23,343 nt of DNA, taken from a virus. Numbering within the stretch: position 1 is the first letter of the stretch; each line of letters starts with the position of its first letter. Under the pieces are notes generated by a model. It worked only from the letters and a program-made list of their open reading frames with translations. It searched no databases and was not told where the DNA came from. The stretch spans positions 1-23,343 of IMG/VR virus record IMGVR_UViG_3300007960_002713; one strand, given 5' to 3'. Both the position numbers and the translations under genes were made by a program. Below are positions 1 through 17,867 of the stretch, one piece after another.

Positions 1-898
1 AAACAAAAGTTGCTCCAACTGAAAGGGCAAGGTCTTTTAGAATATTTCTTCTTTCCTCGCCATAACGTGGTGCTTTGATGCCACACACTCGCATAGTTCC
101 TCGCATAGCATTCATAATGAGAGCGGCGAGTGCTTGACCTTCTATGTCTTCTGCTACGACAACAAAGGGGCGACCTTCTCGTGCTGCGATTTCAAGAGCG
201 GGTAGGAGTGTTTCTACGGACTCAATCTTTTCGTCTGTGACTAAAATGATAGGCTCGTCGTAACTTACAACGCCACGCTTTTCGTCGTTGATAAAAGCGG
301 TTGCTAAATAACCAGAGTCAAAGCGGAAACCTTCTACGAGGTCTAAACTTGTTTCTACGGAGCGTGCTTCCTCAATAGTGACCGACCCGTCTTTACCAGC
401 AAGGTCAACTGCTTTTGCGATAAGACGACCAATAACTTTATCGCCGTTTGCTGAAATAGTGGCGATAGATTCAATGTCGTCGATAGACTTGATAGGAGTT
501 GCTTGGTCTTTTATCTGGTTTACCAAGTAGTCAACGGCAAGGTCCATTCCTTTTTTAAGTTCTACCGGAGCAGCACCGGAAGCAAGATACTTTTGTGCTT
601 CACGATACATAGCATAGGTAAGGACGGTTGTAGTTGTAGTTCCGTCTCCTGCTTCTTGGTTTGTCTTTTCTGCTGCTTGCTTTACTATTTGAGCGCCAGC
701 ATTTTGGAATGGGTGTTCCAAGTCAATAAACTTGGCGACTGTTACACCGTCTTTTGTTGCGATAGGCATTTTGCCTTTCTGATGTAGGATAACTGTGCGT
801 CCTTTTGGACCGAGAGTAGAAGCAACATTACGTGCTATTGTTTCTATTCCTTTTTCTAACTGACCTCGTAGGTCTTCGGAGTTACTAAATTCTTTCAT
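1..898 (-). CDS. groEL: GroEL-type chaperonin, N-terminal 299 residues (partial)
   Basis: This is the 60 kDa chaperonin subunit that folds proteins in a double-ring cage with ATP. The gene runs off the left edge, so only the first 299 of about 540 residues are present. Reading the reverse strand from the ATG at 898 shows the equatorial-domain signatures LGPKGR (residues 29-34), KDGVTVA (49-55) and the ATP-binding GDGTTT (84-89). The intermediate and apical domains follow, with the start of the apical segment near residue 185. An SD-like AGAGGTG lies 5 bases before the ATG, and a strong sigma-70 promoter (918-945) precedes it. Phage GroELs are known from some large phages and are thought to fold capsid or other virion proteins. 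A bacterial origin is unlikely given the phage neighbours. A GroES-like gene lies about 14 kb upstream at 15075. Confidence 0.96.
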   Translation of the reverse strand, partial: MKEFSNSEDLRGQLEKGIETIARNVASTLGPKGRTVILHQKGKMPIATKDGVTVAKFIDLEHPFQNAGAQIVKQAAEKTNQEAGDGTTTTTVLTYAMYREAQKYLASGAAPVELKKGMDLAVDYLVNQIKDQATPIKSIDDIESIATISANGDKVIGRLIAKAVDLAGKDGSVTIEEARSVETSLDLVEGFRFDSGYLATAFINDEKRGVVSYDEPIILVTDEKIESVETLLPALEIAAREGRPFVVVAEDIEGQALAALIMNAMRGTMRVCGIKAPRYGEERRNILKDLALSVGATFV

Positions 899-2204: not shown

Positions 2205-2219
2205 ATTATAAATAGTTCC

Positions 2220-2909
2220 TTATACGATGATATCGGCAATTCCGTATTTAACTGCTTCTTCTGCGGTTAGGTAAAGGTCTAGGTTTTTACCAAGCATTTT
2301 CTTGAGTTGTTTCTCGGTCAAGTTTGACTCTTCTACTAGTGCTTTGATAAGTTGGTTCTGAATCCAACGGGTTTCTACCATTTCGTTTTCGAGTGAGTGA
2401 ATAGTTCCAACGTGACCGCCACGAACGGAGTGCATCATAACTCGGCAGTGCTTACCAATCTTACGCTGTCCTTTTGTGCCTGAAGCGAGAAGTAGAACAC
2501 CAGCAGACATAACCTTGCCCAATCCGTAAGTTGTGATAGGGCACTCGTCACGGATGGATCTGATAAGGTCGTAAATGCCAAACATTCCAAGAGCGTCACC
2601 ACCCCAAGTTGAAATGTAGAATGTGATAGGTTTTGGTTCTGGTTTTTTGGGTTCTTCGTCTTCGCTTTTTTCTTCCAGGTCTTCTGGTTTGCCTAGTGGG
2701 AAGTCAGTATTGACGTTTGCTGTGTGTTTTAAATAAAGAAGACCAGAGCAAATGTCCTCAACTTTTTCTTCGTCCAAGTCTCCGAAAAGACCAATGGTTC
2801 GTAGAGGTTCTGGTGCGTTAGCAGCAGCGGCTAACTGTAAGTCAGCGAGACTGATTATCTCTTTGCCGTCTTCCATTTCTTCTTCTTTATTGTTTCTAGT
2901 CTTCAGCAT
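2220..2909 (-). CDS. clpP: ClpP-like serine protease with acidic insert
   Basis: This is an S14 (ClpP) family serine protease, 229 aa. The catalytic triad is visible as Ser135 in GKVMSAGVLL, His160 in RVMMHSVRGG and Asp211 in NLDLYLTAEEA, and the oxyanion/strand motif FYISTWGG is at 97-104. Cellular ClpP is about 200 aa. The extra length is an N-terminal extension and an acidic, Pro/Lys-rich insert at about residues 64-93 (rich in E, K and P) between the first helix and the YIS strand. The ATG at 2909 has AAGGAGGG 8 bases upstream, which supports it over the internal ATG at 2876, and overlaps the upstream gene by 14 bases. It may work as a Clp protease subunit or, as with other phage S14 proteases, in head maturation. 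The nearby acidic scaffold-like gene makes the second role worth considering. Confidence 0.9.
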   Translation of the reverse strand: MLKTRNNKEEEMEDGKEIISLADLQLAAAANAPEPLRTIGLFGDLDEEKVEDICSGLLYLKHTANVNTDFPLGKPEDLEEKSEDEEPKKPEPKPITFYISTWGGDALGMFGIYDLIRSIRDECPITTYGLGKVMSAGVLLLASGTKGQRKIGKHCRVMMHSVRGGHVGTIHSLENEMVETRWIQNQLIKALVEESNLTEKQLKKMLGKNLDLYLTAEEAVKYGIADIIV

Positions 2910-3315
2910 CTATATTGCCCTCCTTATTGACAATGTAATCACCCTCTAGGATACCATTATAATGATTTCCAATAGTATCCACAATTGTGTTCCAACCATC
3001 TATCTTAAGGGCAGAGCGGTAACGAGGGGGAACGGACTCGTTAAGACCTTTGACTGCTTCCTTTTTCCACTCTAATAGGTCCGCTTCGTCCGTATTCTTC
3101 ATTATTTTAATTTCTTCAGCATCGTGCTCATTTAAATCCAAATAAATGTACTTAGCGGCTGTAATTGCTGCCCACTGTTGGTAGGCATATCCAATAAGTT
3201 TATAGGAGAGGTGTTGGATGTCATTTAAAAACTTTACCTTCCTATAAAATGTGATGGCTTTGTCTACCATTAGATAGACGAAGCCACCCAAGAAAAACCA
3301 AAAGATCTCTTGCAT
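2896..3315 (-). CDS. Small membrane-anchored protein of unknown function, 139 aa
   Basis: I do not recognise a functional family. Residues 3-20 (IFWFFLGGFVYLMV and following) form one hydrophobic N-terminal segment, followed by a positive cluster (FYRKVKF), which suggests an inner-membrane anchor with the rest in the cytoplasm. The remainder is a soluble, mostly helical, mildly acidic domain with several Tyr and Trp. The ATG at 3315 has GAGGA 5-7 bases upstream. The gene lies between the acidic protein and ClpP and overlaps ClpP by 14 bases, so these genes are probably co-expressed. Similar short FWFFLGG-starting proteins occur, from memory, in marine phages. Confidence 0.8.
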   Translation of the reverse strand: MQEIFWFFLGGFVYLMVDKAITFYRKVKFLNDIQHLSYKLIGYAYQQWAAITAAKYIYLDLNEHDAEEIKIMKNTDEADLLEWKKEAVKGLNESVPPRYRSALKIDGWNTIVDTIGNHYNGILEGDYIVNKEGNIDAED

Positions 3316-3350: not shown

Positions 3351-3947
3351 TTACTTGGACTTTTTTAACTTGTTAAGGCGGCGAGCAACACGACGGGCGA
3401 CCTCATTTACCATGTCGTCCATCATTGGCTCCTCTTCCATCTCTTCTTCGGCGTCTGCTGGTTCGACAGGTTCTTCCATTTCAGCGTCCATTTCGACACT
3501 CATGTCTTCCTCGTCGCCCATGCCCATGTCTGGTGCTGGGAGTTCTTCAGCAGGAGCGGCAGCATCCATAGCAGCACGAACTTTGTCGGCTACTTTAAGG
3601 AATACTTGAGCTTCTTCGTCAGAGAGAGTGAGTTCGCCCATATCACCGGCGTCCATATCCACTTCTTCTTCTGATTCTTCGCCTTCGTCTTCGATTTCAA
3701 GATCGTCAACCTCCATTTCTTCATCTTCGGGCATCTCTTCTTCCATTTCGTCGTCCTGCATAGGAGGCATCATTTCCTCTTCCATTGGACGATCTTCGTC
3801 ATCTTTCATGCGATATCCACCTTCTTCTAGATCCTCGTCGGCAGCATACATTTCATTAACGAAGCCAGTTCCAACTGCTTCCATGTTAGCAAGTTTCATA
3901 AAACGGCGAACTGTGCCCTCTTCAAGTAAAGTCTTCTTTTTAGACAT
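3351..3947 (-). CDS. Very acidic, Met/Glu-rich protein, scaffold-like
   Basis: This is a 198-residue protein of strongly biased composition. Residues about 37-160 are runs of Glu, Asp and Met (EEEMM, EDEEMEVDD and similar) with Pro. This acid block is flanked by a basic helical N-terminus (LLEEGTVRRFMKLANMEAVG) and a basic C-terminal helix (VARRVARRLNKLKK). A long acidic, extended middle with structured basic ends is typical of phage prohead core or scaffolding proteins and of internal capsid proteins, but no family is assigned here. The N-terminus contains LEE-G, an LxE-type site like those cut by T4-like prohead proteases. The ATG at 3947 has AAGGAGA 5 bases upstream, the strongest SD in this part. 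The + strand reading frames across it are shadows of its repeated GAA/GAG codons. Confidence 0.8.
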   Translation of the reverse strand: MSKKKTLLEEGTVRRFMKLANMEAVGTGFVNEMYAADEDLEEGGYRMKDDEDRPMEEEMMPPMQDDEMEEEMPEDEEMEVDDLEIEDEGEESEEEVDMDAGDMGELTLSDEEAQVFLKVADKVRAAMDAAAPAEELPAPDMGMGDEEDMSVEMDAEMEEPVEPADAEEEMEEEPMMDDMVNEVARRVARRLNKLKKSK

Positions 3948-3988: not shown

Positions 3989-4243
3989 TTATGTGTTATA
4001 AATAGTGTCTTCTAAGTCAAAATTTTTCTTTTTTAACTTCTTAAATGCTTCTTTTTCTATTTGAGAAACACGGACATATGATATACCTAGTCTCTCGCCA
4101 ACTTCTTTAAGACCTAATCTACCATTCTTTTTTACAGAAATCAAGGTGCAATTTAGATCTTCATTGTGTTTAATCCATAACCTACAATCTTCTTTATTGC
4201 ATATACTGTCGTTCTCCAAACTATCTGTGGCACATTTTCTCAT
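3989..4243 (-). CDS. Sigma-70 region 4-like HTH regulator with four cysteines
   Basis: This is an 84-residue protein. Residues 45-72 (LKEVGERLGISYVRVSQIEKEAFKKLKK) match the helix-turn-helix of sigma-70 region 4, which contacts the -35 box. Before it are four Cys at 4, 15, 20 and 32, in the context CNKEDCRLW...NC, which could bind zinc or an iron-sulfur cluster. No region 2 is present, so it is not a complete sigma factor. It could be an anti-sigma, a co-activator or a small alternative regulator of phage promoters. I start it at the ATG at 4243: GAGG lies 6 bases upstream and the previous stop ends 1 base away. A GTG at 4255 would add four residues but lacks this spacing. It sits just before the scaffold-like and protease genes, so control of late genes is possible. 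Confidence 0.75.
   Translation of the reverse strand: MRKCATDSLENDSICNKEDCRLWIKHNEDLNCTLISVKKNGRLGLKEVGERLGISYVRVSQIEKEAFKKLKKKNFDLEDTIYNT
3996..4005 (-). promoter_or_regulatory. CTATTTATAA decamer, possible phage-specific promoter element
   Basis: The minus strand reads CTATTTATAA inside the 3' end of the sigma-4-like gene, about 50 bases before the ATG of the acidic protein. The identical decamer occurs once more, at 2206-2215, before the 405-residue gene. It differs from the CTTGAC-type promoters used elsewhere in the window. Its reverse complement contains TATAAATA, the T4 late promoter core, but that reading faces away from the genes. The function is unproven. Confidence 0.25.
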
Positions 4244-4244
4244 A

Positions 4245-4574
4245 CTATTCCTCACTTTCTATTAGGTCAAAGATATCTTCTATTTCGTTTGGGTCTAATC
4301 CAAACTTGTTGATGATTTCTTTTTCCTTTTCGTATAGTTGGCGATTCTTTTTTAGTTTTCGTTTCCTCGCCATAATGCTTGTTTCTTTTACCTTTTCTAT
4401 GAAGGGTTGAAGAAGCGGGTCATCCAAGAGATAACCTTTAATGTATTCATTAAAAAACCAAAACTTTGTAATGTCGTCGAACTTTAGTTTTATTCTCAAG
4501 TTGGTGTCTAAGGTTTCCAGACTATCAATAGTTATGGTTTTCGCTTCTTCGGGTTTTGCTTTTCTTTTTTTCAT
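4245..4574 (-). CDS. Small charged protein of unknown function, 109 aa
   Basis: I do not recognise this protein. It is highly charged: a Lys-rich start (MKKRKAKPEE), a central aromatic patch (KFWFFNEYIKGYLLDDPLLQPF, about residues 37-58), then a basic helix (MARKRKLKKNRQLYEKEKE, about 68-86) and an acidic C-terminus (NEIEDIFDLIESEE). The last 45 residues probably form a coiled coil. It has no membrane segment or cysteine motif. The ATG at 4574 overlaps the stop of the IMPDH-like gene as ATGA, so translation is probably coupled. The basic helix could bind nucleic acid, but that is only a guess from composition. Confidence 0.75.
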   Translation of the reverse strand: MKKRKAKPEEAKTITIDSLETLDTNLRIKLKFDDITKFWFFNEYIKGYLLDDPLLQPFIEKVKETSIMARKRKLKKNRQLYEKEKEIINKFGLDPNEIEDIFDLIESEE

Positions 4575-5584
4575 TTAGTTAGAATGTGGGTTCTACTTTC
4601 TGTTTGACCGGCAGCGGTTTGTCTTGTCCATTTGGCATTAGTTTGTAGTCCCTTGATAGTTCTACAACCAGAGTAGGACAAACCAGACAACATGCCGCCA
4701 CGGAGGTCTTCTAAAACATTTACAACTGAACCTTTATATCTAACAAAAGCACTAATGCCCTCGTTGGAACTATAAGATCCACGCCAAGCAAGTTGAGCGT
4801 CTTTTGACGCCATTCCACGATAACTCTTCTTAAGACCTTCCGGTGTTGCTATAGTTTCTCCTGGTGTTTCGTCTGTTCCTGCTAGAAGAGAACCTAGCAT
4901 TACAAAGTCGGCACCAGCAGCAAGTGCTTTTACAATATCGCCAGCAGTTCTAATACCACCGTCTGCGATAATGGCAACATCGTGCTGGGTCTTGGCACAG
5001 TCAATAATAGTTTGTAGACCGGGTAGTCCGTGTCCTGTTTGTATCCTTGTAGAACAAATAGAACCTCCACCGATATTACAACGGATAGAATCAGCGCCCC
5101 ATTTAGCAAGGTCGTTGATACCTTCTAATGTCGCAACATTACCTGCCATAATGTGAACTGCTTCACCAAAAGACTTTTTGAGTACACCAAGTGTCTCTTT
5201 CATTAGAATGTGGTGCCCGTGTGCTACGTCAACACAAATAACATTAGCACCGTTTTCTACAAGAGTTTGTGCTCTCTCAAAGAAATCACCGCTTACACCA
5301 ATAGCAGCACCAACATTATCAGCGCCAGCATTTACCACTTCGGCAACTAAACCTGCTTGTTCTTCTATTGAGTTGTAGCGGTGGATAATCCCTATGCCTC
5401 CTAGCGAATCCATTATGTAAGCCATTTCTGACTCTGTGACTGTATCCATAGGAGACGAAATGATGGGGAGTTGTAGAACTATATTATCGTCAAGAGCGGA
5501 AGTTAGGTGAACTTCGCTGCGACTTCTAATATCTGAAAACTGTGGCGTTAGTAGAACGTCGTCATAAGTTAGTGCTTCTTTCAT
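4571..5584 (-). CDS. IMP dehydrogenase / GMP reductase family enzyme without CBS domains
   Basis: This is a TIM-barrel enzyme of the GuaB/GuaC family, 337 aa. It shows the N-terminal LTYDDVLLTP (5-14), SSPMDTVTE (43-51), the catalytic loop NIGGGSICSTR with Cys177, the phosphate-binding ADGGIRTAGD (207-216) and the GSLLAG motif (231-236). IMPDH makes XMP from IMP with NAD+; GMP reductase converts GMP to IMP with NADPH. The two CBS domains of cellular IMPDH (about 490 aa) are absent. The mobile flap after YRGMAS is about a dozen residues shorter than in IMPDH, lacks the Arg-Tyr pair, and contains NEG (274-276) much like the AEG of GMP reductase. The C-terminal TES-R-H resembles IMPDH. The substrate direction is therefore open. 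The ATG at 5584 follows AGGAGA closely and overlaps the previous stop as ATGA. Confidence 0.93.
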   Translation of the reverse strand: MKEALTYDDVLLTPQFSDIRSRSEVHLTSALDDNIVLQLPIISSPMDTVTESEMAYIMDSLGGIGIIHRYNSIEEQAGLVAEVVNAGADNVGAAIGVSGDFFERAQTLVENGANVICVDVAHGHHILMKETLGVLKKSFGEAVHIMAGNVATLEGINDLAKWGADSIRCNIGGGSICSTRIQTGHGLPGLQTIIDCAKTQHDVAIIADGGIRTAGDIVKALAAGADFVMLGSLLAGTDETPGETIATPEGLKKSYRGMASKDAQLAWRGSYSSNEGISAFVRYKGSVVNVLEDLRGGMLSGLSYSGCRTIKGLQTNAKWTRQTAAGQTESRTHILTK

Positions 5585-5859
5585 TTAGTCTCCTCATCAT
5601 TCGCCATTCCTAATAGGGCATAACCACAAATATCTTTCCAGGGACTTTCACCAAAGGCGTCTTTCCTTGTTGCTAATCTAAACAACTTATCAATAACTCT
5701 TGTGATAGCAAGAGCATCATCATAAGAGTTTGGTGGGATGCCCTCTGGGTAGAGAATTTGCAAAATGTCCGATGCTTTTGAGAAAGAATCACCATAGGCT
5801 TTATTTTTCTCTGCGGTAAGTTTACCAATTTCAGATGCTAATAGTTCGTATTTATTCAT
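5581..5859 (-). CDS. DUF1599/Nmad1-like small phage protein, 92 aa
   Basis: This is a small all-helical protein. Its core KNKAYGDSFSKASDILQILYPEGI, then SYDDALAITRVIDKLFRLATRKDAFGESPWKDICGYALL, resembles, from memory, the short phage proteins assigned to DUF1599 (nucleotide-modification-associated domain 1) and somewhat the MazG-like fold. The conserved acidic and basic pairs (YGDSF, DDALA, RVIDK, ESPWKD) would suit a nucleotide-binding pocket. The gene overlaps the IMPDH/GMPR gene by 4 bases, so a job in nucleotide metabolism is plausible. I use the ATG at 5859, which overlaps the previous stop as ATGA; a TTG at 5874 would add five residues but has no matching context. Confidence 0.72.
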   Translation of the reverse strand: MNKYELLASEIGKLTAEKNKAYGDSFSKASDILQILYPEGIPPNSYDDALAITRVIDKLFRLATRKDAFGESPWKDICGYALLGMANDEETK

Positions 5860-15661: not shown

Positions 15662-15961
15662 TTAATAGCAAATGTAATCATAAGTTTCCCATTGGCAAGT
15701 ATCCCAATAGAAACAGTAGTCAACATAACACTCGTGATCTATGATGGTAGTATCTAGCGTTCTAAAACACTCACAATCTCCAAAACTGTCGTATGACCAA
15801 CAGTATTCATAATTTCTTGGTCCATTATGATAAAAGTTATACTCGCAAGCAGCAATAGACTGCTGTGATTGAGTAGCAAAGTTTACTCTTGAAAGTGGTA
15901 AAGGTCTTACCTCGCACCCAAGAGCAAGTGCGAGGACCAAACCAATTATCGATTTCTTCAT
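15662..15961 (-). CDS. Cys- and Tyr-rich secreted or lipoprotein-like protein, 99 aa
   Basis: The first 16 residues (MKKSIIGLVLALALGC) are a short signal peptide ending in Gly15-Cys16, a possible though imperfect lipobox (Leu rather than Ala/Ser at -2). The mature part carries eight more Cys and many Tyr, Phe and Trp, a pattern of disulfide-rich secreted domains. It would lie in the periplasm or outer envelope. Superinfection exclusion or surface modification is typical for phage lipoproteins, but there is no direct evidence here. The ATG at 15961 has no SD and lies 6 bases after the -10 box of its promoter, so the mRNA is probably leaderless. A GTG at 16033 would start within the RNR gene and is unlikely. 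Confidence 0.75.
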   Translation of the reverse strand: MKKSIIGLVLALALGCEVRPLPLSRVNFATQSQQSIAACEYNFYHNGPRNYEYCWSYDSFGDCECFRTLDTTIIDHECYVDYCFYWDTCQWETYDYICY

Positions 15962-15967
15962 GGGTAT

Positions 15968-15996
15968 ATAATAATAAAATTTTATTATTTTGTCAA
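15968..15996 (-). promoter_or_regulatory. Sigma-70-type promoter of the Cys-rich protein
   Basis: Minus strand -35 TTGACA (15991-15996), -10 TATTAT (15968-15973), spacer 17 bases. Only 6 bases separate the -10 from the ATG at 15961, so transcription should start at or next to the start codon. The spacer is part of a 20-base perfect palindrome (15970-15989). Confidence 0.8.
15970..15989. repeat. Perfect 20-bp AT palindrome within a promoter
   Basis: AATAATAAAA is followed directly by its reverse complement TTTTATTATT. The palindrome covers the whole promoter spacer and part of the -10 box of the Cys-rich gene. It may be an operator for a dimeric repressor, or simply an AT-rich cruciform or hairpin after the RNR gene, which ends 15 bases upstream. 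No T run for a strong terminator follows. Confidence 0.6.
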
Positions 15997-16004
15997 GGGG
16001 TTTT

Positions 16005-17867
16005 TTAGGAAACTTCGCAAGCACCACCAGCACAAGCCAGTTCGCCTTTGAGGTCTGTGTTATCGGATATTTCTACAACATTTGATAGGTCAATGTCTTG
16101 TAGAGTTTGGAGAAGGCGGTTGTAAGTTTCCTCGTCGCAGTCCTCGAAAGGCGCTTGCTTGTAGGTTCCACCGTCATAAGGAAGAACTGAAAGACCGTTA
16201 TAAACATCACGGTTCTCCCACATCCACTCACCAACAGTTTCCCACTCTTCTTCACGGATAGAGACAGTTGCTGAAACGTTATGAGTGTTTTGACCTTTTT
16301 GGTGTCCGCTTTTGACCCACTCTGTTGAAACTTTCTTTACTCTCTCCAACATATCCATAGCAGTTTCGTCTCGTGTAATAGCGCCTTCTGGTGCTTTCTG
16401 TGGGACAGAAATAACTGCTGTGTCGTGTGGTCGGAAGAACTCGTCCTCAACCAACTCTGGGTGGTTGATAGATAAATAAGTGTAAATAGCCTCGTTTTTA
16501 CCGACACGAAGGCGACGAATGTAGTAGTCGTTGTGCCAAGCGTGAATGCCAGAGGAAGTGCCAAGTGTTAGACTTGTTGTTCCTGCTGGTTTAACACAAG
16601 TTGTGCGTGCTGCTGGTTTGATGCCTATTTGGTTCGCTATTCTACGGTTTTCTTTCTTTACTTCCAAAGATGCCTCTTTCATATTCAGTTTTAGGACGTT
16701 TCCAGAAGCAATACCGGTCATAGAGACACCAACGAGAGCGTCTTTCTCTGTTGTTCTGCGCCAAACGTCTCGTAGATAGTGGAAGTCGGTGTAAGACGCT
16801 TGTAGAGTGCCGATAAATGAAGCAGCACGGGCTCTTGCGTTGATTTCCTCTTGACTATCTACGTCAGAAGCGTTGATTTCTGTAAGGTTGCAGAACTGAT
16901 AAGGTCGAAGGGCAATCTCACAGCAAGGGTTGGTGCCCCAATCCTTATCATTTGAGAAATAAAACCCTGGTTCTCCTGCTCCTGATGCTTTTACACGGAA
17001 CCAAAGGTCTTTGAAGAACTCTTCTGTGACCAAGTGTCGCATAAGAACAACAGAGTTGTTTGCTCTACCTCGTTGTGGGTTCTTCTCCCACCAGTGTCCG
17101 CTTTTTGCCGCAATCATTTCGTCGTCTCCTGCGGAAAATAGAGAGATAAGAGCAGCACGACGAATGCCTCCCGCTAAAACAGCGTCAGCGATATAGCAAA
17201 CCATATCGTGAACTTCAATAGGAGTAAGTTTTTCGCCAACTTCTTTGTTTGAGAGCAGACCCTCCAACTTTACAAGACACTCACGGAGAGGTTGTGGTCC
17301 TGGTGCTTTACCGCCTGAAGTAACAAGACTAGCACCTTTTGGTCTAATGTCGCTATAGTCAAAACGAACTTTAGAACCGCCAACAAAATAAGACTTCATA
17401 AGAACTTTAACTGCGTCTGCCCAACCTTCTATTGAATCACCGATAAGATGGCGTCGAGTACGCTTTGTAGATGGGTGAACAATTTCTGGTAATTCCCTGA
17501 CATGATGAAATTGTACGCTGTAACCAACACCAGTGCCTCCAAGAAGTAAAAACATAACTTCATGAAACGAACGCCAATCATCAATAGGAAGATAAGCGCA
17601 ATTAAAGATACGATTAGGGGCAACTTCAACAGGCTTGCCACCAAACTGCATCGAACGCATAGAAGGAAGAACTTTTTTATCATATACATATTCATAAGCA
17701 GCATTAATTTCTTCTTCCAACTCTGGAAATTTCTTTACGTGCATTGCTTTGTTTCGGTCAACTAATTCTGACCAAACTTCTCTTCGCTCTTTCTCTGGTA
17801 AATACTTTGCGTATTTCATGTGGACTGTAATATCTGATAGTGTCTTGTTAGCAATGTCTTGTGGCAT
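16005..17867 (-). CDS. nrdJ: Class II (adenosylcobalamin-dependent) ribonucleotide reductase
   Basis: This monomeric B12-dependent reductase turns ribonucleoside triphosphates into deoxy forms. The 620 aa product carries all five cysteines of the Lactobacillus leichmannii enzyme at matching spacing: Cys90 in FNCAY, Cys315 in the catalytic NPCCE loop (Asn313, Glu317), Cys326 in FCNLTEIN eleven residues later, and the reducing pair Cys612 and Cys617 (CAGGAC) at the C-terminus. It is shorter than that enzyme (739 aa). AAGGAG is about 10 bases before the ATG at 17867. It is 14 bases from the helicase gene. Only 14 bases separate the genes, so a cobalamin riboswitch is excluded here. It needs the host or medium to provide B12. 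Confidence 0.96.
   Translation of the reverse strand: MPQDIANKTLSDITVHMKYAKYLPEKERREVWSELVDRNKAMHVKKFPELEEEINAAYEYVYDKKVLPSMRSMQFGGKPVEVAPNRIFNCAYLPIDDWRSFHEVMFLLLGGTGVGYSVQFHHVRELPEIVHPSTKRTRRHLIGDSIEGWADAVKVLMKSYFVGGSKVRFDYSDIRPKGASLVTSGGKAPGPQPLRECLVKLEGLLSNKEVGEKLTPIEVHDMVCYIADAVLAGGIRRAALISLFSAGDDEMIAAKSGHWWEKNPQRGRANNSVVLMRHLVTEEFFKDLWFRVKASGAGEPGFYFSNDKDWGTNPCCEIALRPYQFCNLTEINASDVDSQEEINARARAASFIGTLQASYTDFHYLRDVWRRTTEKDALVGVSMTGIASGNVLKLNMKEASLEVKKENRRIANQIGIKPAARTTCVKPAGTTSLTLGTSSGIHAWHNDYYIRRLRVGKNEAIYTYLSINHPELVEDEFFRPHDTAVISVPQKAPEGAITRDETAMDMLERVKKVSTEWVKSGHQKGQNTHNVSATVSIREEEWETVGEWMWENRDVYNGLSVLPYDGGTYKQAPFEDCDEETYNRLLQTLQDIDLSNVVEISDNTDLKGELACAGGACEVS

Follow-up and report, generated by a model that had tools for sequence, protein, structure and literature searches.

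In Bacillus subtilis, SigO and RsoA constitute a sigma factor that is split over two polypeptides. Late transcription in phage T4 is unusual in that it employs a sigma factor comprising region 2 only (gp55), an unrelated coactivator that binds the flap (gp33) and a sliding clamp. gp33 clamps the tip helix of the flap in the manner of sigma region 4, but it is structurally unrelated to region 4 and does not bind DNA on its own (PMC7892883); nor does it have discernible sequence similarity to sigma proteins, and the overlap of dsbA with gene 33, which implies translational coupling, is conserved among T4-related phages (PMC2988020). The locus described here lies in a viral stretch of 23,343 nt (IMG/VR record IMGVR_UViG_3300007960_002713), which is referred to in full as the window, and encodes a small protein, C4-sigma4, with the following parts:

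3989..4243, minus strand: C4-sigma4 protein P0001, 84 aa, a Cys-rich N-terminal part plus a sigma region 4.2-type HTH (intact ORF, Pfam, AlphaFold2)
4148..4234, minus strand: Cys module, residues 4-32, C4-x10-C15-x4-C20-x11-C32, with W23 and N31 (62-row alignment and HTH-only scan)
4028..4111, minus strand: HTH, residues 45-72, aligned with Sigma70_r4 model positions 23-50 (Pfam match)

The ORF runs uninterrupted on the minus strand from an ATG at 4243 to a stop at 3991-3989, with GAGG, a Shine-Dalgarno-like site, just 5' of the ATG; an alternative in-frame GTG at 4255 would make the protein longer by 4 residues, and the plus strand contains many stops over the same interval. An earlier note, made from the letters of the window alone, had placed an 84-residue protein here; this stands, and the strand, which it did not give, is minus.

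The reading of the C-terminal HTH as sigma-70 region 4, also taken from that note, is borne out by the profile search, which did not lead to an unrelated family: Pfam Sigma70_r4 (PF04545) matches at E=2e-9 and 37.3 bits, above the cut-off of 24.1. The best 25 NCBIfam matches are sigma factors throughout (25/25), the best PHROG match, confined to the HTH part, is 'RNA polymerase sigma factor' (2e-5), and the solved structures closest to a profile of the C4-sigma4 relatives are region 4 of RpoH, FliA and SigA. Region 2 is indeed missing, as had been claimed, in that Sigma70_r2 finds no match in the 84-aa chain, which is thus not a complete sigma-70 factor. Region 4 itself is not present as a whole domain (4.1 plus 4.2), since only the second half of the 50-position Sigma70_r4 model is covered and its region 4.1 half is unmatched. 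A full-length family for C4-sigma4 was found in none of Pfam, PHROG and NCBIfam. The AlphaFold2 model, built with 62 relatives, has a mean pLDDT of 91.1 and a pTM of 0.73, and places helices at residues 3-11, 33-40, 45-52 and 56-71; in a fold comparison, no solved structure matched this model significantly. Its nearest predicted viral structures in BFVD, A0A6J5KXK5 and A0A6J7WTI0 (E 4.5e-3 and 2.2e-2), are proteins of uncultured Caudovirales that are named 'RNA polymerase sigma-70 region 4' and are like C4-sigma4 by predicted structure; compared by model, they share 18-23% identity with it over the aligned part and superpose poorly (8-9 A).

Successive scans of IMG/VR yielded 23, 37, at least 575 and at least 591 contigs with C4-sigma4 relatives. 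The feature is far beyond chance: besides 21 close homologues (68-100% identity), several hundred that are more distant also have intact ORFs. No full-length relative was found among 50,697 phage records (isolates), and plasmid matches were restricted to the HTH. The bacterial genomes of GTDB contain a single full-length relative, on the 27-kb contig NZBZ01000006.1 (L041), with the same upstream neighbour (-1 gene, see below) alongside; this contig is binned in the small-genome marine MAG ARS1290, the sole carrier among 287 genomes of its phylum, and it is probably viral, perhaps offering a hint at the host. Small bacterial proteins may also carry CPxxxCRxHL...CxLDvA ahead of a sigma-4 HTH; a search of plasmids and phages with a consensus of this type found no full-length counterpart.

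The four Cys ahead of the HTH occupy residues 4, 15, 20 and 32, exactly where the earlier reading had put them, and are kept in every homologue long enough to show them. Across about 150 distinct viral homologues C4, C15, C20, C32, N31, R58 and Q61 are invariant and W23 is nearly always present; in a set of 82 distinct members C15, C20, C32, W23, N31, R58 and Q61 do not vary, and C4 occurs in 81, the remaining one being cut. All 62 rows of the alignment contain the four Cys, 61 of them at the spacing C-x10-C-x4-C-x11-C. The last family scan used a pattern taken from the HTH alone, with no Cys in it, and among the matches listed the four Cys were present in 68 of 68 distinct members. Four Cys conserved at fixed spacing (62/62, 68/68) are what a Zn or Fe-S protein would have, and this pattern is probably best read as a Cys4 metal site, with zinc as the simplest choice.

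A fifth Cys at position 8 is found in 57 of the 82 members and, among the matches listed, in 67 of 68 of the distant set; it is absent from the window's clade, so that C4, C15, C20 and C32 make up the invariant set. The presence of C8 in most of the wider family would allow Fe-S or redox chemistry, and together with the nearly invariant W23 it could be taken to mean that the HTH is switched through the Cys, either by an Fe-S cluster bound to them or by their sensing of Zn, a WhiB-like logic on a different scaffold. We consider this very unlikely, however, because the window's clade manages without C8 and keeps its four Cys fixed, which is how a structural Cys4 site would behave, and because there is neither a CxxC nor a WhiB match.

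The structural genes of the relatives are of the T4 superfamily (gp17-type terminase, portal, phrog_138 capsid, phrog_207 protease and tail sheath). The window encodes a DnaE-type DNA polymerase, ribonucleotide reductase, GroEL and a DnaB-type helicase, its translations, by reading, include RecA-, ThyX- and dUTPase-like genes, and a PolIII-alpha polymerase is encoded both here and in a 138-kb relative. The carriers of C4-sigma4 are uncultured marine T4-superfamily myoviruses with a PolIII-alpha replisome. Also conserved in the 138-kb relative is a small protein, encoded at 15662-16033 on the minus strand of the window, that begins like a signal peptide and has many Cys and Tyr residues.

Gene order around C4-sigma4 is fixed over 82 loci (IMPDH/GMP reductase, 109-aa protein, C4-sigma4, acidic protein, 139-aa protein, ClpP-like protease), and the neighbours in the window are:

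4571..5584, minus strand: -2 gene, IMP dehydrogenase / GMP reductase (Pfam IMPDH 1.9e-105; conserved in 74 loci)
4245..4574, minus strand: -1 gene, 109 aa, possible ribbon-helix-helix DNA-binding protein (directly upstream in 80/82 loci)
3351..3947, minus strand: +1 gene, acidic protein, 198 aa, apparently the first gene of a late-type unit (conserved in 56 loci, nearly always +1)
2896..3315, minus strand: +2 gene, 139 aa, hydrophobic N-terminus (conserved in 57 loci)
2220..2909, minus strand: +3 gene, ClpP-like protease (Pfam CLP_protease 1.3e-27; PHROG head maturation protease 9.7e-20)

A single nucleotide separates the stop of the -1 gene from the C4-sigma4 ATG in the window, and the two genes overlap or lie no more than 5 nt apart in 73 of 78 loci, with a 4-nt overlap in 43 of these; in the distant set a member of the -1 family is nearby in 79 of 80 loci, among the matches listed. 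The predicted structure of the -1 protein (pLDDT 79) has helices at 20-32 and 37-49 and a long helix at 56-91, and one of 47 members of the family has a Pfam NikA-like match (1e-4). Judged by its predicted helices and its sequence, it may be a DNA-binding protein of the ribbon-helix-helix type; a fold search with it gave no match. The -1 family (about 110 aa) has a conserved acidic C-terminal motif, EIEnIFDlIE, and no known family matched it. A relationship with T4 DsbA received no support from hhalign, run with a single DsbA sequence.

On the downstream side, the +1 protein has no family match and no PHROG match; it is very acidic, and its start (LLxEgTxRRFMKLA) and end (VxEVArRVAxRL) are conserved while the part between them varies. 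A GroEL fragment at the window edge (2-898, minus strand) lies near the ClpP-like protease gene, and both are kept in several loci. The genes downstream of C4-sigma4 had been described as scaffold- and protease-like. The second half of that description holds for the ClpP-like protease near GroEL, but the gene next to C4-sigma4 encodes the acidic protein, and the head genes are about 40 kb away in the 138-kb relative, where C4-sigma4 is located at 10 kb and the major capsid, gp21-type prohead protease, portal, terminase and tail sheath genes at 42-59 kb.

Two copies of a candidate late promoter were located in this part of the window:

3998..4006, minus strand: candidate late promoter ACTATTTAT, within the last C4-sigma4 codons; the next start codon follows after about 58 nt
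2208..2216, minus strand: second ACTATTTAT copy, just 5' of a 405-aa gene

Between C4-sigma4 and the next gene, ACTATTTAT occurs in 37 of 61 loci, with 2.0 expected. The top non-RBS motif 5' of genes in four long related contigs includes CTATTTA; sense and antisense counts of ACTATTTA in four long contigs are 18/0, 15/1, 22/3 and 7/1, and in the 138-kb relative the motif precedes several virion genes. Since ACTATTTAT falls between C4-sigma4 and the gene that follows, the C4-sigma4 gene appears to end one transcription unit, with a late-type unit starting directly downstream. The earlier suggestion that this site would suit a switch to late genes agrees with the position of C4-sigma4, right where a late-type transcription unit begins. 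The consensus of the candidate promoter, ACTA(T/C)TTAT, is strand-biased and differs from the T4 late promoter TATAAATA; the latter has no sense-orientation enrichment in any of the four contigs.

When C4-sigma4 is aligned to RpoH and sigma70, the invariant R58 and Q61 fall on R586 and Q589 of sigma70. In structures of sigma-4 with DNA, R584, E585 and Q589 read the -35 element, and R588 also belongs to the recognition-helix set. This set is not preserved in the family: the Q589 equivalent is kept as Q61, and the position of E585 is always V, A or S, that of R584 mostly Y or F and that of R588 mostly K, S or T. Upstream of the 36 best late-type promoters a -35 hexamer at fixed spacing is absent, and a weak W-rich position is found 14 nt upstream of ACTATTTAT. 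With the E585 and R584 equivalents lost and no such hexamer in the best late-type promoters, TTGACA-type -35 reading is unlikely; from its residues, the C4-sigma4 helix is expected to have kept DNA binding but not the usual mode of reading TTGACA. A mimic of only the -35-binding part of sigma, as the protein had been pictured, is thus not what we find. What survives of the idea of a metal-binding regulator that redirects host RNA polymerase is a sigma-4 HTH without region 2, the invariant Cys and the late-type unit border; the -35 mimicry, the WhiB likeness and the adjacent head genes have to be given up.

The same residues bear on whether C4-sigma4 could be a host-takeover factor in the manner of AsiA or P7, whose early hold on the beta-flap or on the place of sigma-4 would lower host and early sigma70 transcription. 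A protein resembling sigma-4 would be a competitor of the host's own sigma-4, its binding would not restore -35 recognition given the loss of the E585 and R584 equivalents, and its gene lies upstream of the late unit. Yet that gene sits amid nucleotide-metabolism genes at the late border, not amid early host-takeover genes, and a pure competitor would not need invariant DNA-binding residues such as R58 and Q61; we hold this explanation to be decidedly unlikely.

Another explanation, unlikely to our minds though less so, takes C4-sigma4 for a stand-alone metal-stabilised repressor or activator that binds operators through its sigma-4-type HTH, alone or with its coupled partner, and leaves RNA polymerase untouched. 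Sigma-4-like HTHs do occur in repressors, and the conserved HTH with its invariant R58 and Q61, the coupling to a possible ribbon-helix-helix protein and late-type promoters without a -35 element would all suit such a role. The profile signal, however, points specifically to sigma factors, no motif resembling an operator turned up, and the late-unit border fits a general transcription role better, as does the company of a gp55-like factor.

This company is seen in the longer contigs. Twelve viral contigs (51-185 kb) each have one Sigma70_r4 match, which is C4-sigma4, and no Sigma70_r2 match. A gp55-type late sigma of 232 aa is encoded by the 138-kb relative (phrog_234 'late sigma transcription factor', 5.6e-8), gp55-like relatives were found in the four longest contigs with C4-sigma4, and relative contigs of at least 150 kb encode the gp55-type late sigma, that is, a region-2 factor, in 8 of 8 cases. 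The reverse search, starting from gp55-like, found C4-sigma4 in 6 of 6 contigs of at least 150 kb and in 0 of 15 contigs of 82-148 kb. When the two genes were first mapped together, in four contigs, the distance between them was about 90-110 kb, so shorter contigs rarely span both, and fragmentation would explain the 0 of 15 without proving it. As all relatives come from one lineage, these co-occurrences are not independent. C4-sigma4 has no phrog_234 match of its own, and gp55-like is a separate gene in the long relatives.

The gp55-like proteins of this lineage, at about 230 aa, are longer than T4 gp55 (4918-5613, minus strand, in the 138-kb relative, L143; also in L168, L169 and L170). Their conserved C-terminal region, NKKAIYLYxREITGLNTKQV..., is extra with respect to T4 gp55 and HTH-like by eye; it could not be recognised as a sigma-4, with no Pfam match and no similarity to the C4-sigma4 family. 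With an HTH-like region of its own, gp55-like may need no separate sigma-4 piece.

Neither gp33 (phrog_254) nor the gp45 clamp (phrog_223) was found in the long relative contigs; both were detected in T4 and in cyanophage Bellamy, which have no C4-sigma4 relative. A bacterial beta clamp (PF02768) was likewise not found in the phage contigs, with positive controls. The clamp searches covered the long relative contigs behind L007, L035, L040, L068, L224, L241, L242, L260, L270 and L278. Because gp33 is small and divergent, its non-detection is weak evidence.

The reading we favour, which we tentatively put a little short of an even chance, is that C4-sigma4 is a solo sigma-4 piece, stabilised by its Cys4 site, that takes the gp33/sigma-4 place on RNA polymerase and, together with the gp55-like factor, serves late genes from ACTATTTAT. 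C4-sigma4, held by a Cys4 site that probably contains zinc, would occupy the beta-flap tip, the site on host RNA polymerase that sigma region 4 and T4 gp33 use, and would touch upstream DNA; the gp55-like piece, a region-2 factor, would attend to the -10 element, and the resulting two-piece late sigma would transcribe late genes from ACTATTTAT promoters. We infer metal binding, RNA polymerase binding, the gp55-like partnership and the late-gene role alike. This reading draws on the Sigma70_r4 match, the gp55-like co-occurrence, the non-detection of gp33 and gp45, the dsbA-33-like coupling and the promoter at the unit boundary. Region 4.1 helps to bind the flap, and the unmatched region 4.1 half weakens the late-sigma reading, as do the missing -35 hexamer and the lack of a significant match among solved structures.

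A broader proposition, which we regard as somewhat unlikely, is that this marine T4-superfamily lineage replaced gp33 and gp45 by C4-sigma4 and thus runs a two-piece late sigma, uncoupled from the clamp, on the new ACTATTTAT promoter. If a sigma-4 homologue did stand in the place of gp33, with the clamp undetected, these phages would provide a natural halfway stage from an ordinary sigma factor to the T4 arrangement, and they could be used to test whether the coupling of late transcription to the clamp is the ancestral or the derived state. A function would then also be at hand for a family that occurs in at least several hundred contigs of marine viruses and is undescribed by PHROGs and Pfam.

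Set against known systems, C4-sigma4 has in common with sigma-70 region 4 (RpoH, FliA, SigA) the region 4.2-type HTH, at a score above the curated Pfam cut-off; unlike region 4, it stands alone, with a Cys4 module in place of region 4.1. SigO and RsoA resemble the two-piece sigma idea, but they are cellular and have no Cys module, and the partner proposed for C4-sigma4 is gp55-like. WhiB-like proteins are likewise small Cys4 transcription proteins tied to sigma-4 and the beta-flap; WhiB, however, binds sigma-4 and is not itself a sigma-4, and its Cys spacing differs. The WhiB-like profile search that the earlier note had called for gave no match at E up to 1, the spacing of C4-sigma4 being C-x10-C-x4-C-x11-C and not CxxC plus x5-C. 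The phages that carry C4-sigma4 are like those with the T4 gp33 system in belonging to the T4 superfamily and having a separate region-2 late sigma, and we propose a likeness in role (PMC7892883); the T4 dsbA-33 layout also resembles that of the -1 gene and C4-sigma4, a small upstream gene coupled to the gene for a small protein (PMC2988020). Homology with gp33 was considered and rejected (hhalign probability 0.4%; phrog_254 absent among the matches of 62 members). gp33 does not have the sigma-4 fold, whereas C4-sigma4 has a sigma-4 HTH, and the gp45 clamp of T4 is undetected in the C4-sigma4 phages. Sigma-4-only proteins are already known in principle, and such members are automatically annotated as 'RNA polymerase sigma-70 region 4'; C4-sigma4 differs from the known sigma-4-only proteins in its Cys4 module, in its fixed coupling and in occurring alongside a gp55-type factor but without detected gp33 or gp45.
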